This document shows positions 6,093 to 36,835 of a DNA stretch of 64,000 nt, in pieces. Made by a program: the position numbers and the translations under genes. Origin of the DNA: an uncultured Flavobacteriaceae bacterium (GTDB taxonomy: Bacteria > Bacteroidota > Bacteroidia > Flavobacteriales > Flavobacteriaceae); the NCBI GenBank assembly GCA_947488345.1, contig CANKZQ010000007.1, positions 62,001 through 126,000 of the forward strand. Reading direction: 5' to 3'. The notes below the pieces were generated by a model that ran no database searches, had not been told where the DNA came from, and saw nothing but the letters and a program-made list of their open reading frames with translations. Each line of letters opens with the position of its first letter. Within the stretch, counting starts at the first letter, position 1.

Positions 6093-7109
6093 ATGAAAAA
6101 CAGACGGCTAGTATTAGCGGCTCGCCCCAAAGGGCTTTTGGTAAAAAAAACCGACTTTAGAATGGAAGAGATTGAATTACCAGCCATAAAAGAGGGTGAA
6201 TTTCTGATAAAGGTATTATTTCTTTCCGTTGCTCCTGTCATGAAGTTTTATATGCAAGATGGCGCCGGAATTGAGGCTCCTCTACAATTTGGTGATACCA
6301 TGCGCGGCCGAGGAGTGGGAGAGGTAGTCGAAAGCAAAAATTCAGCTTTTCAAATTGGTGATATTGTTCAGGGTAAATGCGGATGGCAAGAATACAAAAT
6401 TTGTGATGGCACACCATATCATATGATGTACAAAGTGACTCAAAGAAAAGCACCTTTTTCAACTGCATTAGGCGTTTTAGGAATGACTGGTTTTACCTCT
6501 TATTTCGGTTTATTTCATGTTGGTGAGTTAAAGGCTGGTGACAACGTGTTGGTATCGGCAGCCACGGGAGGTGTTGGTTCTAATGTGGGTAATTTGACTA
6601 AAATTAAAGGAGCAAGGGCGGTAGGTTTAGCCAGTACCGATGAGAAATGTCAATTGCTTACTGAAAAGTTAGGATATATTGGAGCCATCAATTATAAAAC
6701 GGAAAATGTGAGTGAGCGAATAGATCACTTTTTTCCTGACGGAATAGATGTTTATTTCGATAATGTCGGTGCTGAAATGTTAGATATAGCGTTGAGCAAA
6801 ATTAAAAGATATGCGAGAGTGGTGCTATGTGGTCGCATCTCACAGTATGAAAAAAGACAAGATAATTCAGAGTATGACCTAAAAAATTGGTATAAATTAG
6901 GGCTTAATAGAGCAAAAATGCAAGGCTTTTTTATTTATGACTTCGAGGATCAATTCGATAAAGCAGAAAAAGAAATGGCGCAATGGATTGAAGATGGGCT
7001 ATTGACCTACCAAGAAGATATACTTATTGGTCTAGAAAATATGCCAATTGCTTTAAACAGATTATTTGAGAAAAAGAATGTCGGAAAACAACTGGTGAAA
7101 ATTAATTAG
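6093..7109 (+). CDS. NADP-dependent PTGR/CurA-like MDR oxidoreductase
   Basis: This 338-residue zinc-independent medium-chain reductase resembles prostaglandin reductase/leukotriene B4 dehydrogenase and CurA. Family features are an N-terminal GroES-like domain (LAARPKG, VAPVMKFYM, GDTMRGRGVGEV) and a Rossmann domain with AATGGVGSNVG. There are no structural zinc cysteines. Members reduce the C=C bond of alpha,beta-unsaturated carbonyls with NADPH. It is transcribed alone, divergent from the cytochrome c gene, under site A. It converges with and overlaps the amidohydrolase gene by 4 bp. In the pathway it may saturate an enone intermediate; the substrate is unknown. Confidence 0.85.
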   Translation: MKNRRLVLAARPKGLLVKKTDFRMEEIELPAIKEGEFLIKVLFLSVAPVMKFYMQDGAGIEAPLQFGDTMRGRGVGEVVESKNSAFQIGDIVQGKCGWQEYKICDGTPYHMMYKVTQRKAPFSTALGVLGMTGFTSYFGLFHVGELKAGDNVLVSAATGGVGSNVGNLTKIKGARAVGLASTDEKCQLLTEKLGYIGAINYKTENVSERIDHFFPDGIDVYFDNVGAEMLDIALSKIKRYARVVLCGRISQYEKRQDNSEYDLKNWYKLGLNRAKMQGFFIYDFEDQFDKAEKEMAQWIEDGLLTYQEDILIGLENMPIALNRLFEKKNVGKQLVKIN

Positions 7110-8563
7110 TTACTTTCTTTTAGTTTTTTTAATAAGGCGTCGAGGTCATTTCTACTGTAGTACTTACCCTCTTTAAAAATGGCATCAATATTTTTGGTGT
7201 TCTCTATATCTTCTAAAGGATTAGAATTTAAAATGACTAAATCGGCCCACATAGTCTCTTTAATACCACCGAGCTCTTTTTCAAGATTAAAATATTTTGC
7301 TGGATTCGTTGTTGCCGTCTTCAGTGCATCGATGGGCGTTAATCCTGCTTGAACCAACGCGGCCAATTCCTCATGAAGACTCGTTCCGGGGGTTAAATAC
7401 GCAATAGGCGTGTCTGTGCCAGCCATTATTGGAATATCAAATTCGTATATTTTTTTTATCATTTTTTTATTAAAGTCCGATTGAATTTCAAAGACTTTCG
7501 ACATAGGATAATTTTTTAATATAAGGGAGCGTTTTTTCCAATACTGACCAATAGAATCAGGCAAATATTGATAGCTATTCTGATAGATCGAATCTGCAAA
7601 ATATTTATTAGATAAAAATGTATTTAATGCGAGCGTCGGTACTTGCCAGGTATCATTCTTTTTTAAAATACGTAATACTTTTTCGGCCTTTGTAGTATCG
7701 TAATTTGAAATGGCTTTGGCTTTTTGCGCTCTATGAATACTAGATCTTAATTCACCACCCGACAGTTTATTTGTGTTCTTTAAAAGTTCTTGTCGCTCTT
7801 TAAGGAGTTCTTCACTGTTTGAGGCACATGAAAGTTCGAGATTACGCATATGTTCCATGCTACTCATTCCGGCATTTGATGCTGAAATTACATCCATACT
7901 CAACGGAACATGACCCGTAATTTTAAGATTGTTCGCTATACCCAGTTCACATACTTTTATAAACTGTTCTGGAGTCAACATTTCATAAGCTTTTAATAGG
8001 TCAACTTCTTTAGAAATTAATAGTTCAATTTGTTCTTCAGCAGCATTCACCGAACTGAGTCTTACAGAAAGTTCAGGATGTGCAGCATCACTGCCATCAT
8101 AAACATTGGTTTCACCATCTAATAAAGGCCCGGCTATCATAACTCTTGGAGCCTCCGTAGGATTCGCAAGCGCCTTATCTTTCCATTTCTTTACAAAATC
8201 TAATTTACCACCAGTATCTCTAACGCTCGTGATACCATGTGCTAAGAAAAGATCAAACATTCTAGGTGCTAATTCTTCTATATACGCAAAGTGTACATGG
8301 GTATCCCATAAACCAGGAATTAAAAATTTGCCAGCGCCATCGATGATCTTGTTTGACGGAGAAAGGTTTAATTGTGAAGAAGCGGCAATTTTAAGAATTT
8401 TGCCACCTTTAAGAATAACAGTTTGGTTTTCTTTAAGACCATCGTTAGGATCTATGGTTGAAATATTCACAATACAGATAGCATCTTCATACACAGTATC
8501 CGTCGGTTTACAGTTAAATTGTAAAAGCACAACGACTAAAAATAGAATGTTATAATTTTTCAT
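7106..8563 (-). CDS. Amidohydrolase-superfamily lipoprotein
   Basis: This 485-residue metal-dependent hydrolase is of the imidazolonepropionase/prolidase-like amidohydrolase group. A lipoprotein signal ends at C18 (FNCK). The metal motif DTHVH gives H89 and H91. A likely bridging Lys lies in DLLKAYE, further His ligands in TGHVPLS and SMEHMRN, and the catalytic Asp in AGTDTPI. Family members hydrolyse cyclic or linear amide bonds, including lactams and imidazolones, so it is compatible with an N-heterocycle substrate. The lipid anchor places the reaction outside the cytoplasm. It is the last gene of the long minus operon, 10 bp after the SDR gene. Confidence 0.85.
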   Translation of the reverse strand: MKNYNILFLVVVLLQFNCKPTDTVYEDAICIVNISTIDPNDGLKENQTVILKGGKILKIAASSQLNLSPSNKIIDGAGKFLIPGLWDTHVHFAYIEELAPRMFDLFLAHGITSVRDTGGKLDFVKKWKDKALANPTEAPRVMIAGPLLDGETNVYDGSDAAHPELSVRLSSVNAAEEQIELLISKEVDLLKAYEMLTPEQFIKVCELGIANNLKITGHVPLSMDVISASNAGMSSMEHMRNLELSCASNSEELLKERQELLKNTNKLSGGELRSSIHRAQKAKAISNYDTTKAEKVLRILKKNDTWQVPTLALNTFLSNKYFADSIYQNSYQYLPDSIGQYWKKRSLILKNYPMSKVFEIQSDFNKKMIKKIYEFDIPIMAGTDTPIAYLTPGTSLHEELAALVQAGLTPIDALKTATTNPAKYFNLEKELGGIKETMWADLVILNSNPLEDIENTKNIDAIFKEGKYYSRNDLDALLKKLKESN

Positions 8564-8573
8564 AATAAGAGTT

Positions 8574-9347
8574 TTAACCCATAATGCCTTTTACCAAACC
8601 GCCATCTACAGTAATGGTTTGACCTGTGATATACTTACTAAAAGGGGATAACAACCACAGAGCTAACGACGCAAAATCTTGAGGATCTCCAATAGTTTTC
8701 ATAGCCGTTTGATTTTCGAAATTAGCTCTAATTTCCTTTTCGGGAATACCTTTTAATTCACTATTCTTTACAAAAAGATTCTCCATGCGCTGTGTGGCAT
8801 GATAACCAGGGCCCAAAATATTTAATGTTACTCCAGAGGGTCCAATTTCTTGGGATAAGGTTTTTACATAACCTGTAACTGCCAATCGCATAGCATTACT
8901 CAATACCAAATTTTCAACTGGTTGTTTGGTTGATACACTTTCGATAAAGACCAATCTACCATACCCATTTTCTATCATCTTAGGAAGCAATGCTTGGGTC
9001 AATACAATTTTCCAACGTACCACTGTTTTATAGGCATTATCCCAATCAGATATTTTGGTATCCAAAACGGGCATGGCCGGAGGGCCTCCAGAATTGACAA
9101 CCGCCCCCGTAAGAACGCGCGTTCCAATGGTATCAATAATTGTTTCGATAGTTTTTTCCTCAGAAAGATCACCAGAAATAATTTCGATGTTCGGACTGAT
9201 ACGTTGTAAGTCCTTAAGTTTAGACTTTGTACGGGCGACAGCAATAATATTAGCATCTTCGGCTACTAATTGCTCAGTTATCGCTTTTCCAAAACCACTG
9301 GTAGCTCCACCAACTAAAAAGAGCTTATTCTCTAATTGTAAATTCAT
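8574..9347 (-). CDS. SDR-family protein with altered catalytic site
   Basis: This 257-residue short-chain dehydrogenase-fold protein has a divergent cofactor loop (GGATSGFGKA) and a normal C-terminal end (GQTITVDGGLVKG). The usual YxxxK is not visible. At that position the sequence reads NLVLSNAMRLAV, with Ser still present in FIESVS. This resembles the BKR-like SDR subgroup in which the catalytic Tyr is not conserved, as I recall it. It may therefore not be an ordinary dehydrogenase. Its start overlaps the end of the BASS transporter gene by 23 bp, so the two are co-transcribed. Confidence 0.8.
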   Translation of the reverse strand: MNLQLENKLFLVGGATSGFGKAITEQLVAEDANIIAVARTKSKLKDLQRISPNIEIISGDLSEEKTIETIIDTIGTRVLTGAVVNSGGPPAMPVLDTKISDWDNAYKTVVRWKIVLTQALLPKMIENGYGRLVFIESVSTKQPVENLVLSNAMRLAVTGYVKTLSQEIGPSGVTLNILGPGYHATQRMENLFVKNSELKGIPEKEIRANFENQTAMKTIGDPQDFASLALWLLSPFSKYITGQTITVDGGLVKGIMG

Positions 9348-10230
9348 GCTTTTCTTCTTTTAATATCATATTTCTAAATAATCGAATCATCCCAATAGCA
9401 ATGATACACATTATCACTCCATAAACTCCTGCAGTTGCTGCCATTTTTGGAGAGTCTAATAATCCAATGGCTATTGCCATACCCAAAACATTATTCTGCA
9501 TACCACTTTCAATAGAAACGGTTGCCGCTTGTTTTGTAGTCAGTTTAAGACTTTTAGCGCTTAAAAACCCAATACCTAATGTTGATAAATTCAATAGCAG
9601 AACACTTACAAAAGATGCCTTGAGAAAAGCTAAACTGTCACCAATTTCTTCTAGTTTCATCACCATAAAAATTAAGGCAATGACGATTACGATAATCGAA
9701 CCCCATTTAATAATGGGTTTACTTTTGTTTGCTGTTAATGGAAATTTATAACTGAGTATCATACCAAGAAAAACAGGCAGTGCTGTCAATTTGAATATAT
9801 TAAATATCGTTTTCCCTAATGGAAGATGAATAGATTTGCCGCTAGCGCCTAAAATTGCATCTAAGGAAAAATTGATAATTAATGGAATGGTAAAAATAGT
9901 GACGATACTGCTAATTGCCGTCAATGAAATAGAGAGTGCCGTATCTCCTTTTGCGAGATACGTGAAGAGATTTGAAACAGCTCCTCCCGGACAACAAGCG
10001 CATATCATGAGGCCCATGGCAATCATGGGTTCCATCGGAACCAGTAACACAATACCGTAAGCGATACAAGGAACGAGAACGATTTGATTGACAAGTCCTG
10101 TTAAAACAGCTTTCGGAGCGGTACCTATTCTTGTAAAGTCAGGAATAGTAAGCGTCATACCCATGCCAAACATTATCAAAAAAAGTAATATTTGTAATAG
10201 TGTTGGAATAAGGGCTAGCAGCTCAGACAT
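9325..10230 (-). CDS. Bile acid:sodium symporter (BASS) family transporter
   Basis: This 301-residue inner-membrane protein has about nine hydrophobic segments and the BASS/SBF hallmark CACCPGGAVSNLFTYLAKGD in the first half. Bacterial members import organic anions such as bile acids, pantoate or 2-oxoacids with Na+. It sits in the minus operon between the SDR and the PuuE-like genes, so it probably imports the acid or imide processed by that operon. The substrate cannot be read from the sequence. Confidence 0.88.
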   Translation of the reverse strand: MSELLALIPTLLQILLFLIMFGMGMTLTIPDFTRIGTAPKAVLTGLVNQIVLVPCIAYGIVLLVPMEPMIAMGLMICACCPGGAVSNLFTYLAKGDTALSISLTAISSIVTIFTIPLIINFSLDAILGASGKSIHLPLGKTIFNIFKLTALPVFLGMILSYKFPLTANKSKPIIKWGSIIVIVIALIFMVMKLEEIGDSLAFLKASFVSVLLLNLSTLGIGFLSAKSLKLTTKQAATVSIESGMQNNVLGMAIAIGLLDSPKMAATAGVYGVIMCIIAIGMIRLFRNMILKEEKHEFTIRE

Positions 10231-10269
10231 ATAATTAAAAGTTTAATTGACATATAAGATCAAATATAT

Positions 10270-11196
10270 TTAGAGGTCTTGCTTCCAATGGTGAATTATT
10301 TCATTCGGCGATGTTGACCAAACAGCTTCATTTTTAGAAAAACGTTCCAACACCCGTTCTAAATATTGAATACGATGCGGTTGTCCGAGCACCCAAGGGT
10401 GAATATTGAGCCCTAAAACACGACCGCCTTGAGTGGTACTTTCTTGCAACATAAAGTCAAGCGCGTCTTCAACTTGATCAGCCCAATCCTCAGCAGCATG
10501 TAAATTGTTTAAAATGATAAAGTGATCATCTAACTCGGTGGGTAATGGCATCGCCGTTAATAAACCATTGTTGGTTTTGAATTGGTAAGGCATATCATCA
10601 TTTACCCAATCACAAAAATACTCTATGTCATTTGCTTTTAAAATGTCTGGTGTGTTTTCCGATTCGTTTTTTGCCGGGCTAATCCACCCATTAATTTCTT
10701 GCCCAGTTAATTTCCGCAATCCATCCAAAGAACGTTTTATTAGTTCATTTTCTTCGTGTATATTTTGGCCTCCATAATGCAAGGCATCCATATCAAATCC
10801 ATGACACATAATCTCATCTCCTCGTTCTTTTATCTTATCGATTAAATAAGGATAACGTTCTGCCAATCGTGTGTTCACTGCAAAGGTTGGTTTGATGTTA
10901 TAACGATCAAAAGCTTTTAAAAAACGATAAATTCCAACTCTATTGCCATAATCTCGTAAACTATAATGTCGAAGATCGGGATAGGGTTTGGTCATTCCTC
11001 CGGGCACCTTAAATGGAATCCCCTTTTGATTGAGTGGAAAAAACTGTAAGCCTACATTGATCCAAAGTGCTACCTTTTTTTTGTTCGGCCAACTAATTGG
11101 CTTTCGGTCTTGTAACATAGACCATTCGTAACGGTCATGATCCATTCCATAGGAACGCTCAGGATATTTTAAATACTCATCGTTTAACGTTCCCAT
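10270..11196 (-). CDS. PuuE-like polysaccharide deacetylase-fold hydrolase
   Basis: From the ATG at 11196 (MGTLNDEYLKYP) this is 308 residues; an upstream ATG at 11238 would overlap the previous gene by 62 bp. The fold is NodB/polysaccharide deacetylase, closest in style to PuuE allantoinase: SLRDYGNRVGIYRFLKAFD, TFAVNTRLAERYP, GDEIMCHGFDMD, NGWISPAKNESENTPDIL and NIHPWVLGQPHR. The metal-binding Asp pair of true chitin/peptidoglycan deacetylases is not visible (LWINVGLQFF at that place), as in PuuE. There is no signal peptide, so it is cytoplasmic. Hydrolysis of a five-membered cyclic amide or imide is the best guess. It is a diverged duplicate of the adjacent gene. Confidence 0.8.
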   Translation of the reverse strand: MGTLNDEYLKYPERSYGMDHDRYEWSMLQDRKPISWPNKKKVALWINVGLQFFPLNQKGIPFKVPGGMTKPYPDLRHYSLRDYGNRVGIYRFLKAFDRYNIKPTFAVNTRLAERYPYLIDKIKERGDEIMCHGFDMDALHYGGQNIHEENELIKRSLDGLRKLTGQEINGWISPAKNESENTPDILKANDIEYFCDWVNDDMPYQFKTNNGLLTAMPLPTELDDHFIILNNLHAAEDWADQVEDALDFMLQESTTQGGRVLGLNIHPWVLGQPHRIQYLERVLERFSKNEAVWSTSPNEIIHHWKQDL

Positions 11197-12133
11197 AGTT
11201 GCTATTTTTTTGTTGAATATCCGCTTGAGCGAACTCATAATAGTTGTCTAAAAAATATTGAGCAATTTCTTTTCCCGTGGTCACCCACACATCAGAATGA
11301 CCTGTGATATATTCTAGTGCTTCTTCGTATGCCTTGATCCGATGCGCATTACTTACTTGATAATTGTGCGTAGGAATACACATGATGGTGCCACTATCAG
11401 CTCCTTCAGTGTATAGACGATCAAAGTTGTCTTTGAGTTCTTGTCCGTAGCGACGCGGTGTTATTTTTTGAACCAAATAGGCAATGGTGTCATTCATTTC
11501 CAAAGAATAAGGAATGGATACAAATCTTTTTCCATTTCTTAAGTTAATCGGAGTAGGTTGATCATCATGAAAGAGATCACAAGAATAAAATCCTGCTTCA
11601 TCTCCAAAAAGCTCAGAGCCCACTTCTGCGAAAAGATCAAGGGTGTTTTCTGAATGTGAAAGGGCAGGAGCTAAATATCCGGCACATTTTTGTCCGGTAT
11701 GTTTATAAATAGTTTCGATAGAATCTTTTATCATTTCACGTTCTTGAGATTCAGTCATACCATATGTATATCGTGTGTTATAGATGCCGTGACTAAAGAA
11801 TTCCCAATCACGTTCTTTACATTGTTCAATGATTTCTGGATGATGATCACATAAGGCCGTTGATAAAGAAATGGAACCCCGAATACCATATTTTTCTAAC
11901 AATTTCATTTGGCGAGTATGACCGACTCTGTTGCCCCAATCGCGACTCGTATAACCTGGTAAGGCTGGACTCGGTTGTGGCCATGGTTTTCGAAAAGGAT
12001 TGTCAGGTGGATTTAATTCATAGAATTCTATATTCGGCGCAACCCAAAAGGCAACTTTTGCGCCGTTGGGCCATGTTATTTTTGGTCTATTTTCGTACGG
12101 CCAATAATCGTAATATCCAGGATCTTCTTTCAT
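11177..12133 (-). CDS. PuuE-like polysaccharide deacetylase-fold hydrolase
   Basis: The preferred start is the ATG at 12133 (MKEDPGYYDYWPYE, 318 residues), which overlaps the upstream stop in a TAATG arrangement; longer in-frame starts run into the isochorismatase gene. Motifs are SRDWGNRVGHTRQMKLLEKYGIR, FSHGIYNTRYTYG, AGYLAPALSHSENTLDL and IPTHNYQVSNAHR. It is cytoplasmic. It shares layout with the downstream gene, and the two may form a heteromer or act on two related rings. Allantoinase PuuE and, as I recall, some cyclic imide hydrolases belong to this fold. Confidence 0.8.
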   Translation of the reverse strand: MKEDPGYYDYWPYENRPKITWPNGAKVAFWVAPNIEFYELNPPDNPFRKPWPQPSPALPGYTSRDWGNRVGHTRQMKLLEKYGIRGSISLSTALCDHHPEIIEQCKERDWEFFSHGIYNTRYTYGMTESQEREMIKDSIETIYKHTGQKCAGYLAPALSHSENTLDLFAEVGSELFGDEAGFYSCDLFHDDQPTPINLRNGKRFVSIPYSLEMNDTIAYLVQKITPRRYGQELKDNFDRLYTEGADSGTIMCIPTHNYQVSNAHRIKAYEEALEYITGHSDVWVTTGKEIAQYFLDNYYEFAQADIQQKNSNYGNVKR

Positions 12134-12798
12134 TATTTTGTCTTGTTTAACCATTCGAATACTTCCGTCACTTCGAGCACATCGCAATACTTTAAAGACA
12201 AATCGGTGAGATTTGCATAATGATAACTTTCATGTTTATCAGCGACACACTCCTCGGGGATTATTGTACGATACCCCCTGGAAAGTGAATCCACGCCAGC
12301 AGCGCGCACACAACCTGAGGTAGATCCTCCAGTGAGAATAATCGTATCTACTTGATGCCAAACGAGCAGTGACTGTAAAGGTGTTTCAAAAAAAGGTGAT
12401 GGCATTTTTTTTTCGTAAAATACATCTGTAGAACGGTCTAACATTAATCGATCATCTAGCTGAGAGCGTTCAGAATTGAATTTAATATTCTGTAAGCTAT
12501 CTGGAGTGTCGGTGCGAGTTCCCCAAATTCCTGCATCTGCAGCCGTATCCATATATGCCACATTCGTCCAAACTACGGGCCAATCCAAACTTCTAAATAT
12601 CGCAGCGAGCTCGTTGATATAGTCTAGTTGTTTTGGGTCATTTTCATAAGCCGTTTTAAATAGATCAGTTCTTGTATAGGCTTTTTGAATATCGATATTT
12701 ACCAAGGCCGCTTTTTTTCCAAACCCGAAGCGTTTTCTTGCCGGATTAGCCTTAACTTCAAAATAGATTTCTTTGGCGGTTTTATCGGTAGTTTGCAT
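12133..12798 (-). CDS. Isochorismatase-family cysteine hydrolase
   Basis: This 221-residue cysteine hydrolase has the triad pattern of the family: D36 in NIDIQKAY, K130 in YEKKMPSPFF and C163 in GGSTSGCVRAAGVD. The family includes N-carbamoylsarcosine amidase, nicotinamidase and maleamate amidohydrolase, which release ammonia from amides. Next to two PuuE-like ring hydrolases, the likely job is hydrolysis of the half-amide formed when an imide ring opens. The stop overlaps the next start by one base. The exact substrate is inference. Confidence 0.87.
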   Translation of the reverse strand: MQTTDKTAKEIYFEVKANPARKRFGFGKKAALVNIDIQKAYTRTDLFKTAYENDPKQLDYINELAAIFRSLDWPVVWTNVAYMDTAADAGIWGTRTDTPDSLQNIKFNSERSQLDDRLMLDRSTDVFYEKKMPSPFFETPLQSLLVWHQVDTIILTGGSTSGCVRAAGVDSLSRGYRTIIPEECVADKHESYHYANLTDLSLKYCDVLEVTEVFEWLNKTK

Positions 12799-12812
12799 AG
12801 TTGTATGATTCT

Positions 12813-13247
12813 TTATTTTTTTATTCTTTCTTTAATTTTGGAGGATTGCATTGAAATAATTTGCCATCGTTCTTTTTCAAAAATCCAAATAACCGTTAGA
12901 CGAAATCTTCCTTTATCGAAGTCTTTATATTTTCGTTCATTAATATAATTTGTTAGCACTACATTTTCTGCCAAATTCAAGAATTCAATAGCTGAATTTT
13001 CGTAGCTCTCAAAGGTATTTTTAAGATTCAATAGCGCAACTTTCGTATTGTATTTTTTGCCACTTTGAGAAGTTAATATAAGATTAGGATGATAGATTTT
13101 AGTTGCTAGGTCGATATCACTATTCAAATGAGCCGTTCTTAACTGCGCTATTTGATCTTTTATTTGTTGTTTCTTCTCATTGCTAACTTCTTGAGCGATT
13201 CCGAAAAGGAAAAAAAAACAGCAGCAAAATGTGATTATACTTTTCAT
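12813..13247 (-). CDS. Exported DUF4440/NTF2-like protein
   Basis: This 144-residue protein has a signal peptide (MKSIITFCCC to FGIAQ) and a small alpha+beta domain of the DUF4440/SnoaL-like NTF2 fold. Features are an N-terminal helix with QIAQLRTAHLNSD, then IYHPNLILTSQSGKKYNTK, and a final strand RFRLTVIWIFEKERWQIISMQSS. Such proteins bind small hydrophobic ligands or act as non-catalytic partners. It lies 6 bp downstream of the CoA-transferase gene. No active-site residues can be assigned. Confidence 0.75.
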   Translation of the reverse strand: MKSIITFCCCFFFLFGIAQEVSNEKKQQIKDQIAQLRTAHLNSDIDLATKIYHPNLILTSQSGKKYNTKVALLNLKNTFESYENSAIEFLNLAENVVLTNYINERKYKDFDKGRFRLTVIWIFEKERWQIISMQSSKIKERIKK

Positions 13248-13253
13248 ATGTAT

Positions 13254-14435
13254 TTAATCTAATTTAACAATTCCAGCCGCGACCATTTTTTCAATGGTCG
13301 CATCGTCGATGTCTAGTTCTTTTAATACTTCCGAAGTATGTTCTCCAATCTTCGGAGGATCCATACGTTTCTCGATACGCGTTCCTTTGTATTCTAATGG
13401 AAATTTCGGAAGTTTCGTGAGTTTTCCGTCACCCATATCTACCTCCATGAGGCTATTACCCTCGTTTAACTGTTCATCTTCAAAGAGATCTTCAGGTCTA
13501 CTGATAGGGGCAAATGGGATATGCCCTTTGTCACACCTTTCAATAATTTCTTTTTTTGTGAATTCTTTGAAACGCTTTTCTAGTGCAGGAATAAACCATT
13601 CTCTTTCATCGATGCGTAAATTGTTGGTTTTTAATTTTTCATCAAGAAGCCAATCTTGCCAATTAAAGACATCGCATAATCGTTCCCAATGTTTTTCACT
13701 GATGATTCCGACAAATACCTTGTCATTATCTTTTGTATCAAATACTTTATAGATTGACCAAGCACTTACACGTGATGGCATGGGCGGTATTTTATAATCG
13801 ATTTGCGAGGCATAGGCCATATGTTGTCCCATTAAAAAAGCGCAAGTTTCGAATAATGCTGCTTTTACGAAACCACCTTTTCCTGTTTTTTCTCTTTCAA
13901 AAAGAGCTTGTAGAATTCCGATATAACCAAACATGCCACCTGTAATGTCAATTACCGATGTTCCGGCGCGCAATGGGTCACCTTCGCGTCCTGTCATATA
14001 GGCCAAACCTCCCATCATTTGAACCACTTCATCCATGGCGTGTCTTTTCTCATAGGGGCCACTCAAAAATCCTTTTAAAGAGCAATAAATAAGACGTTCG
14101 TTAAAAGTTTTGAGTTTCTCATATCCTAGACCTAAACGATCCATTGTGCCTGGCCCAAAATTTTCTACCACGACATCATATTCTTTGACCAATTGATAGA
14201 TTAGATCAATGCCTTCTTGCGATTTTAGATTGATGGCTAAACTCTTTTTGTTTCGATTGTAAAACCAAAAATAGCCTGTGCCAAAGCCTTGTAATCTTCT
14301 AGTATTATCACCATTGATTGGTTCTACATGTACGACTTCGGCGCCCATATCTGCGAGCATGAGTCCAGCACAAGGCCCCATAACCGCATGCGTAAATTCT
14401 AAAACTTTGATACCTTTTAAAGGAGCGCTACTCAT
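13254..14435 (-). CDS. Class III CoA-transferase (CaiB/BaiF family)
   Basis: This 393-residue family III CoA-transferase shows LEFTHAVMGPCAGLMLADMGAEV, the conserved VVENFGPGTMDRLGLGYE segment and the catalytic Asp at D135 (AMDEVVQMMGGL). The enzymes move CoA between carboxylic acids through an aspartyl-CoA thioester intermediate. In the operon it stands between LeuCD-type hydratase genes and amide hydrolases, so it probably activates the hydroxylated dicarboxylate, as citramalate and itaconate CoA-transferases do. The next gene upstream ends one base from its start. Confidence 0.9.
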   Translation of the reverse strand: MSSAPLKGIKVLEFTHAVMGPCAGLMLADMGAEVVHVEPINGDNTRRLQGFGTGYFWFYNRNKKSLAINLKSQEGIDLIYQLVKEYDVVVENFGPGTMDRLGLGYEKLKTFNERLIYCSLKGFLSGPYEKRHAMDEVVQMMGGLAYMTGREGDPLRAGTSVIDITGGMFGYIGILQALFEREKTGKGGFVKAALFETCAFLMGQHMAYASQIDYKIPPMPSRVSAWSIYKVFDTKDNDKVFVGIISEKHWERLCDVFNWQDWLLDEKLKTNNLRIDEREWFIPALEKRFKEFTKKEIIERCDKGHIPFAPISRPEDLFEDEQLNEGNSLMEVDMGDGKLTKLPKFPLEYKGTRIEKRMDPPKIGEHTSEVLKELDIDDATIEKMVAAGIVKLD

Positions 14436-14436
14436 T

Positions 14437-14997
14437 TTATTTTTTGTTTAGAGATTTATAAAAAGTTTCTGGAGCATTTTCTATAGTTGTATTTAAGGTA
14501 GAATTCCATCGATTCAAAAAACCGAACATGGCTATCACACTTACAATTTCTATCATTGCTTCGTTATCATAATATTTTTTGAGAATTTTAAAATCTTCAT
14601 CGTTTATTTGGTTTGGAACCATACTGCCTTTTAGGGCAACGTTTAACGCAGCCTTTTCTGCATCGGTAAACAAAGTCGAAGTTTGATATTCCCACAGTTG
14701 ATCTAGCTTCTCCTTTGCAACACCTTGTTCATTGGCTCCATATGCTGAATGTGCACTGCAATATTCGCATCCACTCGTTTTACTCGAAATATGACCGATC
14801 ATTCTTTTTAAACCTGCATCTATTTTCCCTTCGGCATAAATAGCCTTCGCTAAGTCAAAAAAGGAAGTTAAGACGGCAGGTTTATGAGCCATTGTTAATC
14901 CATCATTCGGCATAAAACCCATCCAAGCTTCTGCTTGCTTAAATAAAGGACCTAATTTGCCTTGTTTCGGTTTTGATATGGGGTCAACTCTACTCAT
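14437..14997 (-). CDS. AhpD/carboxymuconolactone decarboxylase-like protein
   Basis: This is a 186-residue all-helical protein of the CMD/AhpD superfamily. The signature GCEYCSAHSAYGA gives C77, C80 and H83, the CxxCxxH site of AhpD-like peroxidases. Family roles range from alkylhydroperoxide reduction to gamma-carboxymuconolactone decarboxylation; the intact CxxC favours a thiol peroxidase role. It lies 3 bp after leuD and 1 bp before the CoA-transferase gene. It could protect the pathway from peroxide made by flavin oxidases, but this is a guess. Confidence 0.83.
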   Translation of the reverse strand: MSRVDPISKPKQGKLGPLFKQAEAWMGFMPNDGLTMAHKPAVLTSFFDLAKAIYAEGKIDAGLKRMIGHISSKTSGCEYCSAHSAYGANEQGVAKEKLDQLWEYQTSTLFTDAEKAALNVALKGSMVPNQINDEDFKILKKYYDNEAMIEIVSVIAMFGFLNRWNSTLNTTIENAPETFYKSLNKK

Positions 14998-15000
14998 ATC

Positions 15001-15504
15001 TTACAGTGAATAGTTTCCATGTTTTGTTAAATAGTTTACCAATCCGCCTTCGTTTAAAATATCGATCATGATGTCTGGGAGTTTCGTGGCGCTGTATACT
15101 TTGTTTGCACTTAAGTCTTTGACGATCCCTGCTTTTAAATCGATGTCAAGTTCGGCCCCTTTTTGAATATTGTGGTCTGCTATTTCTAATACAGGCAATC
15201 CGATATTAATGGCATTTCTAAAAAATATACGTGCAAAATCATGGGCAATTACAACTGATACGCCGGCTTGCTTTAAGGCCAGTGGAGCTTGTTCTCGAGA
15301 AGATCCACAACCAAAGTTGATACCCGCTACAAGGATATCTCCTTGTTGAACAATTTTATTAAAGTTAGGATCTAAATCTTCTAAAACATGATCAGCCAAC
15401 GTTGAAAGATCTAATGTCTTCGTATACTTTCCAGGAATGATACGGTCAGTATCAATATGGTCACCATACACATGTGCTTTCGCATGTATCGTTGTTGCTT
15501 TCAT
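15001..15504 (-). CDS. LeuD-type hydratase small subunit
   Basis: This is the 167-residue swivel subunit of an aconitase-superfamily hydro-lyase. It has DHIDTDRIIPGKY near the start, the intact substrate loop GSSRE (67-71), DFARIFFRNAINIGLP and a short C-terminal domain. It pairs with the LeuC-type subunit encoded immediately upstream; the ATG overlaps its stop by one base. Leucine synthesis is unlikely because no leuA or leuB is present and the neighbours are catabolic. Homologues hydrate maleate, citraconate or dimethylmaleate, which fits this operon. Confidence 0.88.
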   Translation of the reverse strand: MKATTIHAKAHVYGDHIDTDRIIPGKYTKTLDLSTLADHVLEDLDPNFNKIVQQGDILVAGINFGCGSSREQAPLALKQAGVSVVIAHDFARIFFRNAINIGLPVLEIADHNIQKGAELDIDLKAGIVKDLSANKVYSATKLPDIMIDILNEGGLVNYLTKHGNYSL

Positions 15505-16739
15505 TACAATAAATATTTTTTAGGATTTACAATATAACCTTCCAGAGCAGCAGCAGCCACTGTAGATGGAGCTCCAAGATAAATATTAGAATTGGGATTT
15601 CCCATACGTCCCCTAAAGTTTCGATTTGCTGCAGAAATAACTACTTCACCATCTGCCGGCACCCCTTGGTGAGTACCAACACAGGGTCCACAACCAGAAG
15701 TAATGAGTGAAGCTCCTGCCTCAATTAATGTGCTCATACTTCCATTTTTCATGGCGTCTAATAATACACTTTGTGAGGCTGGTGCGATAACCATACGTAC
15801 ATCGGGATGTATTTTTTTGCCTTTTAAAATTTCAGCGGCAATGTCTAAATCTTCGAGGCGACCATTACAGCAAGTGCCTATAAATGCGTAGTCAATTTTT
15901 GTGCCTTCGTAAGCCGAAATATTATGCACATTATCTGGAGATTCAGGAGCACTCACTTGAGGCTCTAAATCCGAAACATCGAAATCAAATACTTTCACAT
16001 AGTTGGCATGTTCGTCTGGTGTTATTGCTTCAAAATCATAATCCAGTTGTAGTCCTTTCGGATGTACAATACCAGTTTTCGCGCCCATTTCTGATGACAT
16101 GTTCGCGATGGTCATGCGGCTCGCTAAACTCAAACCTTCAAAAGCTTCACCCGAAAATTCAATTGCCTGATATGTGGCTCCCGAAACCGTTACTTTTCCT
16201 ACTAAAAAGAGAATCAAGTCTTTGGCGGTCACTCCTTCTTTTAGTTTTCCTGAGCAGTTAATTTTAATAGTTTGAGGCACTTTGAGCCAAATTTTTCCTG
16301 TCATCATGGTGGCGGCTAGATCTGTAGAACCTACACCACAAGCAAAAGCGTTTAATGCTCCATAAGTCGGTGTATGTGAATCGGCTCCAATAAAAATATC
16401 ACCTGGTTTTACATACTGATTTTCGACCATTACTTGATGGCAAATACCTTCTCCAATTTCAAACAATCGTATACCTTGTTCTTTAGCAAAATCGCGCATC
16501 ATTTTATGTAAATTGGCAATACGTTCATTCGGTGAGGGTGCCGCGTGGTCGATGATTAATGCACATTTTTCAGGATTAAAAACCTTTTTTCCGCCCATTT
16601 CATGAAAGGCTTTTATGGTTAATGGTCCAGTTGTATCACTCGCCATAGCGCCGTCAACATCGCTTATAACCAGTTCGCCGGCAAAGACTTTTTTGCCTAC
16701 ATGTTTTGATATTATTTTTTCTGATATTGTTTGTCCCAT
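15504..16739 (-). CDS. LeuC-type hydratase large subunit
   Basis: This is the 411-residue catalytic subunit of an isopropylmalate/homoaconitate-type dehydratase. The [4Fe-4S] cysteines are visible in GTCCNGRLEDL and SGCGPCVGTHQG. IGADSHTPTYGALNAFACGVGSTD and the GRMGNPNSNIYLGAPSTVAAAA end are typical. Both start and stop overlap neighbouring genes by one base. Predicted to act with LeuD on a cis-unsaturated dicarboxylate. A second diverged pair is encoded at 40211-41479 and 42840-43367. Confidence 0.9.
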   Translation of the reverse strand: MGQTISEKIISKHVGKKVFAGELVISDVDGAMASDTTGPLTIKAFHEMGGKKVFNPEKCALIIDHAAPSPNERIANLHKMMRDFAKEQGIRLFEIGEGICHQVMVENQYVKPGDIFIGADSHTPTYGALNAFACGVGSTDLAATMMTGKIWLKVPQTIKINCSGKLKEGVTAKDLILFLVGKVTVSGATYQAIEFSGEAFEGLSLASRMTIANMSSEMGAKTGIVHPKGLQLDYDFEAITPDEHANYVKVFDFDVSDLEPQVSAPESPDNVHNISAYEGTKIDYAFIGTCCNGRLEDLDIAAEILKGKKIHPDVRMVIAPASQSVLLDAMKNGSMSTLIEAGASLITSGCGPCVGTHQGVPADGEVVISAANRNFRGRMGNPNSNIYLGAPSTVAAAALEGYIVNPKKYLL

Positions 16740-17650
16740 TAGATCATTTTAATGTCTTCCTTATCTACTAATTGGTATAACTGTCCGGGTAGCTTTAGAC
16801 CCAATGTTGTTTCCATTTCTCTACTGATGGCTGCTATTTTATGAATATCTATACCGGTTTCATAACCCATTTGATGTATCATATGAGCACTGTCTTCTGT
16901 GGCAATATTACCTGTAGCACTTTTTATAAATGGGCAACCGCCCAAACCACCAAAAGCTGTGTCGAATATTTGCACTCCTGCTTCGATGGCAGCGTATAAA
17001 TTAGCATATCCTTTATTTTCTGTATTGTGAAGATGTAACACCACCGGTACGGTACCAGCTTTTTCAACAACTTTGTGCATAAGTTCGCCGAGTTGTTTTG
17101 GATTTCCCATACCCGTAGAATCTGCCAATGCGAGTTCATCAATGCCCGCGTCTAAATGATGATCTACCATATCTAACACATGATTTGGATCAATATGACC
17201 TTCATAACGACAACCAAAGGCACATTGAATACCTCCTCTAACAGTTATGTTATTTGATTTAGAAAGCTTCACCATTTCATTGAAGACTTTTTTAGCTTCC
17301 GACAAGGTAAGTCTCGCATTTTTTTGACTATGTGTATCACTTGCTGAAATTGAACAAGCAAGATGGTCTAAGTCAGCATCAATACCCCTTTCGACACCTT
17401 TTAAATTGAGAACGAGTCCGCTGTAAATGACATCAGGTTGTTTTTCTACTTGATTACAAATCGCCTCTGCATCGGCCATCTGTGGTACAAGTTTAGGATG
17501 TACAAAAGAGGCTATTTGTATCCGTTTGAGTCCTGCAGCCACCAATTGATCAATATAGGCCAGTTTTTTCGCAGTTGGAATGACCTGAGAAAGGGTTTGA
17601 AAACCATCTCTAAGACCCTGCTCTTCTAAGATAATGTGCTTAGTGTTCAT
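16739..17650 (-). CDS. HMG-CoA lyase-like enzyme
   Basis: From the ATG at 17650 this is a 303-residue TIM-barrel enzyme of the DRE metallolyase superfamily. LRDGFQ (R14, D15) replaces the common RDGLQ, and the HMG-CoA lyase signature GLGGCPF places the catalytic loop Cys at about 239. Metal-binding HLHN is also seen. Such enzymes split 3-hydroxyacyl-CoA thioesters into an acyl-CoA and a keto acid. As the first gene of the operon, followed by LeuCD and a CoA-transferase, it would cleave the activated hydroxy diacid. An ATG at 17668 is possible but falls inside the operator. A TATCTTTG box at 17657-17664 leaves almost no leader. Confidence 0.88.
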   Translation of the reverse strand: MNTKHIILEEQGLRDGFQTLSQVIPTAKKLAYIDQLVAAGLKRIQIASFVHPKLVPQMADAEAICNQVEKQPDVIYSGLVLNLKGVERGIDADLDHLACSISASDTHSQKNARLTLSEAKKVFNEMVKLSKSNNITVRGGIQCAFGCRYEGHIDPNHVLDMVDHHLDAGIDELALADSTGMGNPKQLGELMHKVVEKAGTVPVVLHLHNTENKGYANLYAAIEAGVQIFDTAFGGLGGCPFIKSATGNIATEDSAHMIHQMGYETGIDIHKIAAISREMETTLGLKLPGQLYQLVDKEDIKMI

Positions 17651-17656
17651 ATATAA

Positions 17657-17664
17657 CAAAGATA
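17657..17664 (-). promoter_or_regulatory. Candidate -7 element for the HMG-CoA lyase operon
   Basis: On the minus strand these bases read TATCTTTG, an exact match to the Bacteroidota -7 consensus TAnnTTTG. The box begins 9 bp after the proximal GTTAAC half-site of site B. The predicted transcript would begin within a few bases of the ATG at 17650, so the mRNA may be leaderless. The -33 element would lie under the operator. Confidence 0.5.
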
Positions 17665-17700
17665 ACAAAATTAGTTAACATAGTTAACTAATTTTGTTAT
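17662..17700. promoter_or_regulatory. Operator-like inverted repeat, site B (39-bp palindrome)
   Basis: Perfect 18-bp arms (17662-17679 and 17683-17700) surround the spacer ATA. The core is GTTAAC-ATA-GTTAAC. It lies between the divergent HMG-CoA lyase and aldehyde dehydrogenase genes, so its symmetry may serve both promoters. On the plus strand TATCTTTA (17700-17707) starts 11 bp after the core. Unlike sites C, D and E it is a single unit, but both half-sites are the symmetric GTTAAC. Confidence 0.75.
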
Positions 17701-17777: not shown

Positions 17778-19193
17778 ATGAAGATACGAAACCCTTATAC
17801 AGGTGTTTATGATTATGAATTAGTTGAAGATTCTGGTCAAGATATTTTAAAAAAAACCAACGACATTCGACTGGCGCAAAAAGAATGGAAGTTATTGGAT
17901 ATTACTGAACGAGTAGCGGTCCTAAAGAAATGGATTGCAAGCTTTACCGAATTTCAATTGGAAATTACTGAACAGTTAGCTATCGATACTGCGAGAAAAA
18001 GAATTGCCAAAGTAGAGGTATCAGGTATTATTGGTTTGATGCAAGCCTGGTCTTTTAGAGCTCCACAATTGTACAACCCGCCCTCAGAGCGTCCATCGGT
18101 CTCTGCGAATACCGTAATGATTGGTCAACAATGGGTACCGTATGGTGTTGTAGGGGTTATCAGTCCGTGGAACTTCCCTTTACTATTAGCATTAATTGAT
18201 ACTATTCCCGCACTAATGGCAGGCTGTGGAGTCTTGTTAAAACCTAGTGAAGTTACGCCGAGATTTATGGATGGTCTTGAAAAAAGTATTCAAGCCGTAC
18301 CTGAATTGGCTAAGGTTCTTAAATTGGTTAGAGGAGGGGCAGAAGCGGGCAAGGCAGTAGTGAATAATGCTGATGCTATTTGTTTTACTGGGAGTGTACC
18401 TACAGGTAAAAAAATTGGAGCCGTTTGTGCCGACCGTTTTATACCAGCTTTTTTAGAGTTAGGAGGAAAAGACCCAGGAATCGTGTTGAAGGATGCGGAT
18501 ATAGAAGTTGCTACCGACGCAGTACTTAGAAGTGCCGTTGGCGCTACAGGGCAGGCATGTCAGTCTTTAGAACGCATTTATGTTGATACGACCATTTATA
18601 GAGATTTTGTAAAAAAAATTACCGCAAAAGCAGCGGCAGTTACCTTAACTACTGACCAAAATAAAGGGCAGATGGGGCCATTGATTTTTGAACAACAGGC
18701 CGAAAAAATTCAGGAACAAATTGATGATGCTGTATCTAAAGGAGCAAAAGTACTTACGGGTGGAAAAGTTGAAGCAATTAACGGAGGACTTTGGTGTGCA
18801 CCTACTGTGCTGGTTGATGTTGATCATACGATGAAAGTTATGACCGAAGAAACGTTCGGGCCGTTGGTGCCTATTATGTCTTTTTCTACAGAAGACGAAG
18901 CGCTAAGGTTGGCAAATGATAGTATTTACGGATTATCAGCCTCGGTATTTTCAAGAGACATTGAGAAGGCTATTGCTATGGGTTCTCAAATTGAAGCAGG
19001 TGCTATAAGTATCAATGATGGTAGTTTAACGAATAAAGTATATGACGCCGAAAAGAACTCTTTTAAAGATTCTGGGATTAATGGTTCGAGAATGGGAGAT
19101 GCAGGTTTTCTGAGGTTTTTTAGAAAAAAGGCATTATTGATTCAAACGGCACATCCAGAGACTATGGCAAATTTTGAAGAAACAAGTTCCTAA
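17778..19193 (+). CDS. Aldehyde dehydrogenase
   Basis: This is a 471-residue NAD(P)-dependent aldehyde dehydrogenase. Catalytic residues are E227 in FLELGGKDP and C261 in GATGQACQSLERIYV; PWNFPLLLALIDTIPALMAGC and FTGSVPTGKKIG mark the cofactor domain. It should oxidise an aldehyde to the acid in the cytoplasm. It is the first gene of a plus-strand unit divergent from the HMG-CoA lyase operon under site B, followed within 4 bp by an exported VOC protein. The substrate is unknown; amine oxidation products or a semialdehyde are candidates. Confidence 0.92.
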   Translation: MKIRNPYTGVYDYELVEDSGQDILKKTNDIRLAQKEWKLLDITERVAVLKKWIASFTEFQLEITEQLAIDTARKRIAKVEVSGIIGLMQAWSFRAPQLYNPPSERPSVSANTVMIGQQWVPYGVVGVISPWNFPLLLALIDTIPALMAGCGVLLKPSEVTPRFMDGLEKSIQAVPELAKVLKLVRGGAEAGKAVVNNADAICFTGSVPTGKKIGAVCADRFIPAFLELGGKDPGIVLKDADIEVATDAVLRSAVGATGQACQSLERIYVDTTIYRDFVKKITAKAAAVTLTTDQNKGQMGPLIFEQQAEKIQEQIDDAVSKGAKVLTGGKVEAINGGLWCAPTVLVDVDHTMKVMTEETFGPLVPIMSFSTEDEALRLANDSIYGLSASVFSRDIEKAIAMGSQIEAGAISINDGSLTNKVYDAEKNSFKDSGINGSRMGDAGFLRFFRKKALLIQTAHPETMANFEETSS

Positions 19194-20955: not shown

Positions 20956-21861
20956 TTAGTTGACTGGATTCATTTTCTTAAAATAGGTCCAGCTTGTTTC
21001 ATTTGGTTTAGTGTATTCTGTCGGAGCGTGTCTATATTCAGGTTTATTAGCCACGACATACTCGGTTAGTATCTTAGGCATTTTATCATAATCGGTTTCT
21101 AGCAATTTATAACCAGCTCCTTGATATACCATATTTCCTTGATGTTGCCCCATGTTTAACCACGGCAGCCATGGCCCCATTCGAGTCCATGAAATTGTAC
21201 AATCAATACTGTTTTTATCAGGGTCATTCATATCTTTTTCAGAAAAGAAAAACTGAAATAATTCAGCAGCTTCATAAAGGTCAGATTGAGAGTTCTTAGG
21301 ATATTCTTTCATAGATAGAGGAGAAGGGTACGCTAAAAATATATCTGCGTTCATACAAATAATATCATCACCTAACTTATTGTGATTTACGCCCCATTTA
21401 CCATATTTACCTTCTAAAGCTTGCTTTTGATTTACTGGCGAATTCCAAACATGTAAAACATCAACTGTTTCATTGGTGTAAGGATTTTCAAATTGCTCTA
21501 GTACTTCTCCTGTTTTTAAATCAGTGTAGAGTAATACTTCGTTCGTCAAGAGATCATAGCTGTGTTCACCTGTTTTGATTTGTCTTCCGATATTATACAT
21601 TTGGAAACCCATTAATGGCTTGTCGCGTTCGCCTTCTACAAAACCATAAACGGTTCCGTTGGCATAGAAAATCACTTCTTCACCATCTTTTAATGAACCT
21701 CGAACCTTTATAAAGGCCGTCAGGTTATCTTCAGGATTGTCTAAATTTAAGTTTAAGGAAGTCGACTTTTCTAATGATTCTTTTGAATCATCTGTCTTTT
21801 CTTGTTTACAAGAAACGAAAAGTAAAATCGAAAGCAAAATCGACATTATTTTAGTGTTCAT
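20956..21861 (-). CDS. DUF1838-like lipoprotein
   Basis: This is a 301-residue lipoprotein with signal ending LFVSCKQ. The soluble domain begins LNLDNPEDNLTAFIKVRGSL and contains DLKTGEVLEQFENPYTNETVDVLHVW and a late Trp-rich stretch (SWTRMGPWLPWLNMGQHQGNMVY). This is the third DUF1838-like protein in the window. It lies 91 bp downstream of the TonB receptor with a terminator between them, so it may rely on readthrough or its own promoter. The function is unknown; a role in ligand capture near the outer membrane is speculation. Confidence 0.78.
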   Translation of the reverse strand: MNTKIMSILLSILLFVSCKQEKTDDSKESLEKSTSLNLNLDNPEDNLTAFIKVRGSLKDGEEVIFYANGTVYGFVEGERDKPLMGFQMYNIGRQIKTGEHSYDLLTNEVLLYTDLKTGEVLEQFENPYTNETVDVLHVWNSPVNQKQALEGKYGKWGVNHNKLGDDIICMNADIFLAYPSPLSMKEYPKNSQSDLYEAAELFQFFFSEKDMNDPDKNSIDCTISWTRMGPWLPWLNMGQHQGNMVYQGAGYKLLETDYDKMPKILTEYVVANKPEYRHAPTEYTKPNETSWTYFKKMNPVN

Positions 21862-29323: not shown

Positions 29324-29353
29324 TATGTATTCCAACGCATTATAACAAGAAAA

Positions 29354-36118: not shown

Positions 36119-36835
36119 TCAATTTTTTTTATCACAAGGTTTTTCCTTAAGGTTTATTGTGGGGCCTTTTTGATGTACTCCAAAAACAGGATTTCCTTTA
36201 CTGTCGGTTGCACTATCTTCTAATAGTAAGGCATCCTTTCGTAGTGTCAGGGTTTCGTTTAGATATACTTGCTTTTTGAATCTTTTAGAGTAGTAATTAC
36301 AGGCATTTTTTTTGAGATATCCTTCAAAAATAGCTCCTTTAAGTTTCCAAAAAACATCACATCCTGGTTTCAGAAAAAAATCTTCACGTTTTAACTCGGT
36401 GAATATTTCAGGTTGTAGGTGTCCATTTTTTAGTTTATTCGGATCTTTCGGAGTGTAAATTCTTAGTCTGATAGCCATTTCTGTCGTGTCAACTTCAAAG
36501 GCATAAATTCTTTGGCGATATAAATCGTCTAGATTGTAATGCTGTGATTGTTGAGCATATATTGTTTTACCTGGAATGAAATCAAGCTCTACCTCATAGA
36601 AGATATGATGCGTTTGCCGATGACGCTTTTCTAATGGTAATTTATTCACAGCTTCTTTATAAACCTGTTGATGATTATCATATTCACCAGGAAACCATGT
36701 CAGTAATGTTTTTAAATCTTTTTCTAAAACATCAACGGATATCGGTTTTATTTTCCGCTCTTGTGCATATTGCGTAGTTACATTAAGCAATGATAAGAAG
36801 ATGGTTAAAAGCGAGAAGTAAAGTGGTTTCTTCAT
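36119..36835 (-). CDS. Exported CpcT/CpeT-like protein
   Basis: This 238-residue protein has a signal peptide (MKKPLYFSLL to TTQYAQ). The CpcT/CpeT pattern is clear: LKTLLTWFPGEYDNHQQ, HIFYEVELDFIPGKTIYAQQSQHYNLDDLYRQRI, then FLKPGCDVFWKLKGAIFEGYLKKNAC. Its length is close to the cyanobacterial family. It lies directly downstream of an MFS transporter gene with a 2-bp gap. A bilin-lyase activity is not implied because no phycobiliprotein gene is seen; binding of a chromophore-like substrate is a reasonable hypothesis. Confidence 0.78.
   Translation of the reverse strand: MKKPLYFSLLTIFLSLLNVTTQYAQERKIKPISVDVLEKDLKTLLTWFPGEYDNHQQVYKEAVNKLPLEKRHRQTHHIFYEVELDFIPGKTIYAQQSQHYNLDDLYRQRIYAFEVDTTEMAIRLRIYTPKDPNKLKNGHLQPEIFTELKREDFFLKPGCDVFWKLKGAIFEGYLKKNACNYYSKRFKKQVYLNETLTLRKDALLLEDSATDSKGNPVFGVHQKGPTINLKEKPCDKKN

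Follow-up and report, generated by a model that had tools for sequence, protein, structure and literature searches.

Operon architecture and protein families

The window analysed here is a 64,000-nucleotide stretch of contig CANKZQ010000007.1 (positions 62,001 to 126,000; assembly GCA_947488345.1) from an uncultured Flavobacteriaceae bacterium, and its left part contains an operon that may convert cyclic imides to acyl-CoA. According to the list of open reading frames (ORFs), 12 genes run on the minus strand from 17668 to 7106 with frame-to-frame gaps of −62 to +39 bp, a spacing for which a single operon is the natural reading. The run begins with an HMG-CoA-lyase-like C–C lyase (HMGCL; 16739–17668, PF00682 1.4e-41), the frame of which starts at TTG and has its first ATG at 17650. 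It is followed by the aconitase-family large subunit LeuC1 (15504–16739, PF00330 5.4e-98), the LeuD/DmdB-family small subunit LeuD1 (15001–15504, TIGR02087), an AhpD/carboxymuconolactone-decarboxylase-like protein (14437–14997, PF02627 6.4e-10), a CaiB-type class III CoA-transferase (13254–14435, PF02515 1e-107) and a DUF4440 (NTF2-like) protein with an N terminus that resembles a signal peptide by eye (12813–13247, PF14534 2.8e-06). The remainder comprises an isochorismatase-like amidase, the proposed half-amidase (12133–12798, PF00857 1e-26); PuuE1, a polysaccharide-deacetylase/PuuE-like hydrolase and proposed imidase (11177–12187, PF01522 1e-09); PuuE2, a second PuuE-like protein and possible partner subunit (10270–11238, PF01522 1.2e-10); a BASS/SBF transporter (9325–10230, PF01758 4.7e-37); an SDR oxidoreductase that overlaps the transporter gene by 23 bp (8574–9347, PF13561 2.6e-34); and, as the final gene, an amidohydrolase (7106–8563, PF01979 1e-19).

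An earlier note on this sequence had named the importer, the two ring hydrolases, the amidase, the LeuCD-type hydratase, the CoA-transferase and the HMG-CoA-lyase-like enzyme at 9325–17650 on the minus strand, and Pfam and NCBIfam profiles recovered each of these families at its position. That list was correct as far as it went, having passed over the AhpD-like, DUF4440, SDR and amidohydrolase genes, the last two of which lie beyond 9325–17650.

PuuE1 and PuuE2 belong to the polysaccharide-deacetylase family related to PuuE and HpPgdA, and their Protein Data Bank (PDB) matches include 3cl6, the PuuE allantoinase (E-values of 1.2e-22 and 1.3e-24, respectively), 3s6o and 3qbu. Residues H133, D204, D208, D209 and H274 of PuuE1 are near-invariant in an alignment of 50 rows. 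Both proteins fall far below the cut-off of the PuuE allantoinase equivalog TIGR03212 (104.7 and 105.2 bits against 424.6), which disfavours use of purines or allantoin.

The best PDB sequence match of the amidase is 4l07 (E-value of 6.1e-26), which, like 3ot4/3uao, we take to be a maleamate amidase (NicF/Ami). Its residues D36, K130 and C163 are invariant in five orthologs and align with the maleamate-amidase entries; together with the PF00857 match they constitute the Asp-Lys-Cys triad that we take to characterize the isochorismatase family and maleamate amidases. The orthologs also share an N-terminal motif, E[IL]Y[FY]E[VI]KANP.

For the later steps, LeuD1 exceeds the cut-off of the LeuD/DmdB subfamily TIGR02087 (201.9 against 108.95 bits) and scores below the LeuD and HacB equivalogs (198 against 246 and 199 against 230 bits). 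LeuC1 likewise exceeds NCBIfam subfamily cut-offs and falls short of the LeuC and HacA equivalogs (469 against 610.65 and 470 against 550 bits), and it has a separate relative elsewhere in the genome, a 465-residue frame on contig C3. Given the missed equivalogs and the presence of other relatives elsewhere in the genome, a reading as ordinary leucine or homoaconitate genes was rejected. The CoA-transferase scores 360.9 bits with PF02515 and reaches none of the substrate-specific equivalog cut-offs, and HMGCL exceeds that of NCBIfam PRK05692 (298.1 against 246 bits), with a single further match in the genome at E ≤ 1e-10 (28% identical).

Marker trio and lyase exchange across phyla

Marker genes of the proposed terminal module occur in Bacteroidota, Alpha-, Beta- and Gammaproteobacteria and Acidimicrobiales. 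Two peptide patterns derived from the aligned amidases detected 56 loci among 84,980 species genomes. Their hosts, assigned from record titles, many of which denote metagenome-assembled genomes or ‘uncultured’ organisms, are Flavobacteriaceae, Saprospiraceae, Cytophagales, Chitinophagales and Bernardetiaceae within Bacteroidota, and otherwise Comamonadaceae and other Burkholderiales, Rhodospirillaceae and other Alphaproteobacteria, Pseudomonadales, another gammaproteobacterium and Acidimicrobiales. PuuE1 lies downstream of the amidase in 48 of the 50 loci with at least 1.2 kb of downstream sequence (the misses are L071 and L091), and PuuE2 in 44 of the 50 that extend 2.3 kb or more. With thresholds of 35% identity and 50% coverage, LeuD1 is found in 39, LeuC1 in 34, HMGCL in 30 and CaiB in 30 of the 56 loci. 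ORF calling is poor in high-GC loci, and genes unmatched there were left uninterpreted.

The cleavage step is encoded in two mutually exclusive ways. With matches counted at E ≤ 1e-10 anywhere in a locus, and hydratase counts resting on LeuD, CaiB and HMGCL occur together in 31 of the 56 loci, all lacking a PrpB-like protein, and a PrpB-like protein occurs in nine loci that have neither CaiB nor HMGCL (L072, L073, L080–L083, L085, L087 and L090); the overlap is zero (Fisher p 2.7e-4, ignoring relatedness). Three of the remaining loci carry one of CaiB and HMGCL, and 13 none of the three lyase-step genes. LeuD accompanies all nine PrpB-like genes and 29 of the 31 CaiB–HMGCL pairs. PDB matches of the PrpB-like protein are methylisocitrate lyase, petal death protein and 2,3-dimethylmalate lyase, enzymes that cleave alkylmalate-type acids; its representative at L085:8939-9841 scores below the PrpB equivalog TIGR02317 (301.8 against 354.4 bits).

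This exclusivity fits a substituted-malate intermediate, and in the simplest account LeuCD would supply both lyase systems with a substituted malate, one cleaving the free acid and the other its CoA ester. Read from gene content, the exchange is the best comparative support for the step order given in the earlier note, from imide through half-amide, substituted maleate and CoA ester to acyl-CoA and 2-oxoacid. A group of acyl-CoA dehydrogenases stands beside PrpB-type clusters in four loci with hosts that look related. By inspection it resembles glutaryl-CoA dehydrogenase, which would favour hematinic acid as a substrate, but it scores 209 against 470 for the NCBIfam equivalog and is no more than a lead.

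The surrounding island and its CpeT-family proteins

The operon forms a module within a conserved island of about 70 kb. The island continues for about 18 kb left of the window, and on the right the housekeeping genes rimP-nusA-infB begin at 55747. Within the window, Pfam profiles identify three CpeT/CpcT-family genes (PF06206), two DUF1838 genes (PF08894), one DUF3598 gene and three flavin amine oxidase genes; the island’s flavin oxidases have export-type N termini by eye. CpeT1 is a two-domain protein (2896–3900, minus strand, 2.6e-24), and CpeT2 (36119–36835, minus strand, 4.5e-25) and CpeT3 (52592–53683, plus strand, 7.9e-13) are its relatives further right. DUF1838a (1962–2879, 4.7e-13) and DUF1838b (20956–21861, 1.3e-70) are both on the minus strand. 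Left of the window, gene names follow a reading of the translations, except for CpeT0, Nit1 (NCBIfam) and DUF1838c, the last a 30% tblastn match to DUF1838b.

Most of the island recurs in other genera. Among 299 genomes of the family, the source genome included, PuuE1 orthologs with 88–89% identity are present in two others, G215 and G026, which belong to other genera. With at least 50% identity over 80% of the protein length, and 100 kb taken from each, 54 of 69 island proteins recur in G215 and 56 of 69 in G026, although the gene order differs. These stretches contain no match to the five flanking proteins (LacI, USP, RimP, NusA and IF2), and DUF1838a, DUF1838b, CpeT2, the amidohydrolase and some others are unmatched there at the 50% level.

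In a sample of 395 genomes of the phylum, two members of another Bacteroidota family, f19, carry a compact cluster (G311 and G330; PuuE1 about 60% identical), and a third, G422, has PuuE2 at a contig end. The compact cluster holds relatives, 22 to 77% identical, of 23 listed island proteins: HMGCL, LeuC1, LeuD1, CaiB, the amidase, PuuE1 and PuuE2 from the operon, together with the TonB receptor (32% identical), DUF1838b, CpeT, VOC_a, MFS2, DUF3598, LeuC2, LeuD2, HpaI, SDR2, HyuA, HyuB, MTase, SnoaL, MarR and Nit1. Under the 50% test, 17 and 18 of the 69 island proteins pass in G311 and G330, respectively. The BASS transporter, which the earlier note had made part of the route, is present in the window and was not found in either compact cluster. 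With the island recurring across genera and in a second family, the most fitting view of the operon is as one section of a larger pathway.

All four CpeT copies of the genome exceed the PF06206 cut-off and lie between C7:53689 and C7:115266, within 62 kb of a 3.8-Mb genome. An AlphaFold2 model of CpeT1 (pLDDT of 88) has five PDB matches at E ≤ 0.001, exclusively CpcT, CpcT with phycocyanobilin, CRL and CpeT (TMt of 0.75–0.79), and the predicted fold match has 20% identity. CpeT2 has a single PDB sequence match up to an E-value of 0.1, again to CpcT (E-value of 0.0073), and CpcT matches by eye six of eight residues that are invariant in the CpeT alignment.

CpeT-family genes are also enriched in genomes that carry the amidase. 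Co-occurrence was tested in the genomes of 50 of the 56 loci (all except L039–L044), of which 36 have CpeT: all 20 Flavobacteriaceae and 16 of the 30 others. Among the 299 family genomes, CpeT is found in 22, namely the three carriers G000, G026 and G215 (four, three and three copies) and 19 of 296 non-carriers with one copy each. The Fisher p value for 36/50 against 19/296 is 1e-23, ignoring relatedness; that for 16/30 against 19/296 is 5e-10, again ignoring relatedness and with a family background that is not matched to carriers outside Flavobacteriaceae. The phylum sample, used as background because f19 has three genomes only, contains CpeT in 28 of 395 genomes.

CpeT lies within 10 kb of the amidase in nine of the 56 loci (L039, L040, L042, L052, L054, L055, L057, L061 and L090), and CpeT and the trio share one contig in three further genomes, one each from Burkholderiales and Saprospiraceae (judged from contigs of equal length) and one from Alphaproteobacteria. 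The Burkholderiales CpeT copies adjoin a relative of DUF1838b and another CaiB-HMGCL-amidase set, which is 33–35% identical to that of the window and occupies L095:8576-12800. Among the 16 carrier CpeT regions examined, several from Alphaproteobacteria and that of L109 have little other island content. PrpB-type carriers G706, G707, G715 and G719 (L072, L073, L081 and L085) have 15, 7, 8 and 10 CpeT-family matches. In long CpeT proteins of other carriers, the second half resembles a separate 249-residue protein at L005:6578-7327, which may be a split second domain. DUF1838 proteins recur in the island, and both a Burkholderiales contig and a Chitinophagales genome have one next to CpeT, L005:9152-10051 being among them. 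The predicted structure of DUF1838b is confident and mostly β, but the idea that it is a lipocalin relative of CpeT gained no convincing PDB match (TM-scores of at most 0.38 among the 50 matches listed).

Other genes of the island include an aldehyde dehydrogenase divergent from the operon (17778–19193, plus strand, PF00171 1.4e-106), a TonB-dependent receptor (21953–24607, minus strand, PF00593 and PF07715) and AceE-type pyruvate dehydrogenase E1 and E2 genes (26648–30967, plus strand, PF17831 and PF00198), which recur in G215, G026 and L104. On the plus strand, a second hydratase pair, LeuC2 (40211–41479, PF00330 1.6e-90) and LeuD2 (42840–43367, PF00694 2.1e-06; 88.5 bits against the TIGR02087 cut-off of 108.95), encloses an amine oxidase gene and precedes an HpaI-type aldolase (43371–44132, PF03328 3.2e-34) that reaches no equivalog cut-off. 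This arrangement suggests a second arm of hydration and cleavage. HyuA (45333–47405, PF01968) and HyuB (48947–50566, PF02538 1.3e-142), also on the plus strand, are nearest to the NCBIfam models of caprolactamase alpha (NF050156, 549 bits) and beta (NF050157, 208 bits), each below the cut-off of 1000. Outside the island, two adjacent beta-lactamase-family (PF00144) serine hydrolase genes occupy 62052–63933.

Proposed pathway, its rivals and known systems

In the proposed pathway, PuuE1, perhaps with PuuE2 as partner, would open a substituted maleimide to the half-amide, from which the isochorismatase-like protein would strip ammonia to give a dialkylmaleate. LeuCD would hydrate this to a dialkylmalate, CaiB would form its CoA ester, and the HMG-CoA-lyase-like enzyme would split the ester into an acyl-CoA and a 2-oxoacid. 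The PrpB-like lyase of other bacteria would cleave without CoA. We regard this imide-to-acyl-CoA chemistry as probable from family membership and gene context. The order of steps in the earlier note agrees with the families, with their conservation across phyla and with the exclusive exchange of lyases. It is incomplete in that the operon appears to be a module of the island, and in that G570 (L111) has CpeT, both LeuCD pairs, CaiB and HpaI with the amidase unmatched genome-wide, so that the imide step is not obligatory.

The link to CpeT suggests a natural substrate that was absent from the earlier note. Terminal bilin rings are lactams, which would suit the caprolactamase-like HyuAB. The natural substrates would be alkylmaleimides from oxidised linear tetrapyrroles (bilins, or chlorophyll or heme fragments), with pigment uptake and cutting attributed to the TonB receptor, the CpeT-fold proteins, the flavin oxidases, the VOC-like proteins and the lactamase-type HyuAB. 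By carbon balance, hematinic acid would give pyruvate and glutaryl-CoA, or 2-oxoglutarate and propionyl-CoA, and methylethylmaleimide would give pyruvate and butyryl-CoA, or 2-oxobutyrate and propionyl-CoA. These predicted products are ordinary metabolites and the island has its own 2-oxoacid dehydrogenase genes, which is circumstantial support; the AceE-type E1 and E2 are a possible sink for the 2-oxoacid. Methylethylmaleimide, methylvinylmaleimide and hematinic acid are oxidative products of heme and chlorophyll. Passages of PMC7318184 cite senescent leaves and lake sediments as places where hematinic acid and maleimides have been found. According to a passage of PMC10942906, the carrier Maribacter algarum was isolated from a red alga and M. 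vaceletii from a sponge; the red-algal origin is likewise circumstantial.

We assign a probability of roughly 0.45 to an imide-to-central-metabolism module acting on tetrapyrrole-derived alkylmaleimides. Taken by itself, the tetrapyrrole substrate is plausible at somewhat less than even odds. A dedicated bacterial system for complete mineralisation of linear tetrapyrroles, with CpeT-fold pigment handlers and the terminal module as its parts, is a more tentative proposal.

Several observations weigh against this reading. At the ring-opening step, PuuE1 is without the second histidine of the HxxxH metal motif that we take to be a feature of HpPgdA-type imidases (its HGIYNTRY aligns to HGYSHEN of 3qbu), and the ‘HG’ histidine of PuuE2 is lost in several lineages of the alignment, so that the two ring hydrolases of the earlier note, both present as genes, may be one enzyme and its partner. 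The amidase scores almost equally with maleamate amidase (94.4 bits) and N-carbamoylsarcosine amidohydrolase (93.8 bits; 26st, E-value of 9.4e-26). To our knowledge, no HMG-CoA-lyase-family enzyme acts on malyl-CoA-type esters, and no ligand has been described for the CpeT-family members of non-phototrophs. Of the 37 loci flanked on each side by 8 kb or more, seven lack LeuD and all of the lyase-step genes. The stretches from G215 and G026 yielded no CpeT2, and CpeT is unmatched in 14 of the 30 tested carriers outside Flavobacteriaceae, whose genomes are of unstated completeness. Conversely, besides G570, CpeT occurs without an amidase match in G626 (L112), with the end of HyuB and relatives of DUF1838 and VOC_a, and in G611 (L113), a long match with almost no island genes within 15 kb. 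Heme oxygenase and bilin reductase families are unmatched among the 56 Pfam-scanned proteins of the window, a scan that stopped short of the island’s left part. Because of relatedness and horizontal transfer, all p values of the comparison overstate the significance. In the samples of PMC7318184 itself, as far as its passages on them go, hematinic acid was detected and maleimides were not.

The strongest rival leaves the operon chemistry unchanged and has the island degrade another complex natural product, such as an alkaloid or another pigment, through an imide or lactam, with CpeT-fold proteins binding a non-bilin hydrophobic ligand. CpeT often stands apart from the imide genes, since 24 of the 28 CpeT genomes in the phylum sample have neither PuuE and three have a PuuE1 ortholog, the other being G422 with its PuuE2 and an unmatched amidase; the island proteins are, moreover, distant from CpcT, as the CpeT2 E-value and the 20% identity of CpeT1 indicate. 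However, the significant matches of the CpeT1 model are limited to CpcT, CpeT and CRL, the invariant residues are largely shared with CpcT, and tetrapyrroles are a known source of alkylmaleimides (passages of PMC7318184); we consider this explanation unlikely.

More improbable is a route for simple maleimide, citraconimide or dimethylmaleimide, or an end route like that of nicotinate fermentation, serving small imides of any source beside unrelated pigment-like neighbours. Dimethylmaleate hydratase and dimethylmalate lyase form a known pathway pair that LeuCD and the PrpB-like lyase of nine loci mirror, and the carriers without CpeT would be expected; yet two other genera keep most of the island together and another family has it in compacted form, and carriers have CpeT more often than non-carriers. 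A hydantoin, N-carbamoyl or lactam pathway of creatinine- or purine-like type, with ring opening by HyuAB, the isochorismatase as N-carbamoyl hydrolase and PuuE on an allantoin-like ring, draws on the N-carbamoylsarcosine amidohydrolase and allantoinase matches and on HyuAB within the island, but is very improbable because it would make LeuCD, the CoA-transferase and the C–C lyase superfluous despite LeuD in 39 of 56 loci, the PuuE proteins score far below the allantoinase cut-off, and HyuAB are nearest to caprolactamase, albeit below its cut-offs.

Among the top-ranked papers listed by searches of the open-access PMC library, we found no description of this operon or of bacterial bilin mineralisation, and no bacterial route from pyrrole-derived chlorophyll fragments to central metabolites; chlorophyll is made and degraded on a scale of 10^12 kg per year, as a passage of PMC7318184 states. 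If the tetrapyrrole substrate is right, the pathway would be new, providing concrete genes, the amidase-PuuE1-PuuE2 trio as a survey marker and cultured carriers, and suggesting that CpeT-family proteins have a role outside phototrophs. Should the chemistry alone prove right, the combination of an imidase, a half-amidase and a hydratase with two interchangeable lyase systems would still be new.

The enzymes are of known kinds and their assembly is new. PMC9304392 presents HxnM as a cyclic imidase that resembles HpPgdA and PuuE and is followed by an amide hydrolase. The operon shares such a PgdA/PuuE-type ring opener and subsequent amide hydrolase with the cyclic imide routes of Pseudomonas putida (CIH) and Aspergillus nidulans (HxnM-HxnN; PMC9304392), and differs in its two PuuE-type genes, its isochorismatase-like amidase, its LeuCD and C–C lyase system, and a PuuE1 without the HxxxH motif. 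The end route of nicotinate fermentation likewise couples a LeuD/DmdB-subfamily hydratase (DmdAB) to cleavage of a dialkylmalate by dimethylmalate lyase, and is resembled most by the PrpB-type cluster variants; the window has a CoA-transferase and HMG-CoA-lyase-like pair in place of that lyase, and its diacid would derive from an imide. With maleamate amidase, as we identify NicF/Ami among the PDB entries, the operon amidase shares the fold family, the aligned Asp-Lys-Cys residues and its best PDB match; it is distinguished by the N-terminal motif of its orthologs. The island proteins share with the T-type phycobiliprotein lyases CpcT/CpeT the Pfam family and, for CpeT1, the predicted fold, CpeT being described as a putative lyase that aids bilin attachment (a passage of PMC10452541). 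In contrast to those lyases, they occur in hosts without known phycobilisomes, with one to several copies per genome and export-type N termini by eye, and CpeT1 has an additional C-terminal part.

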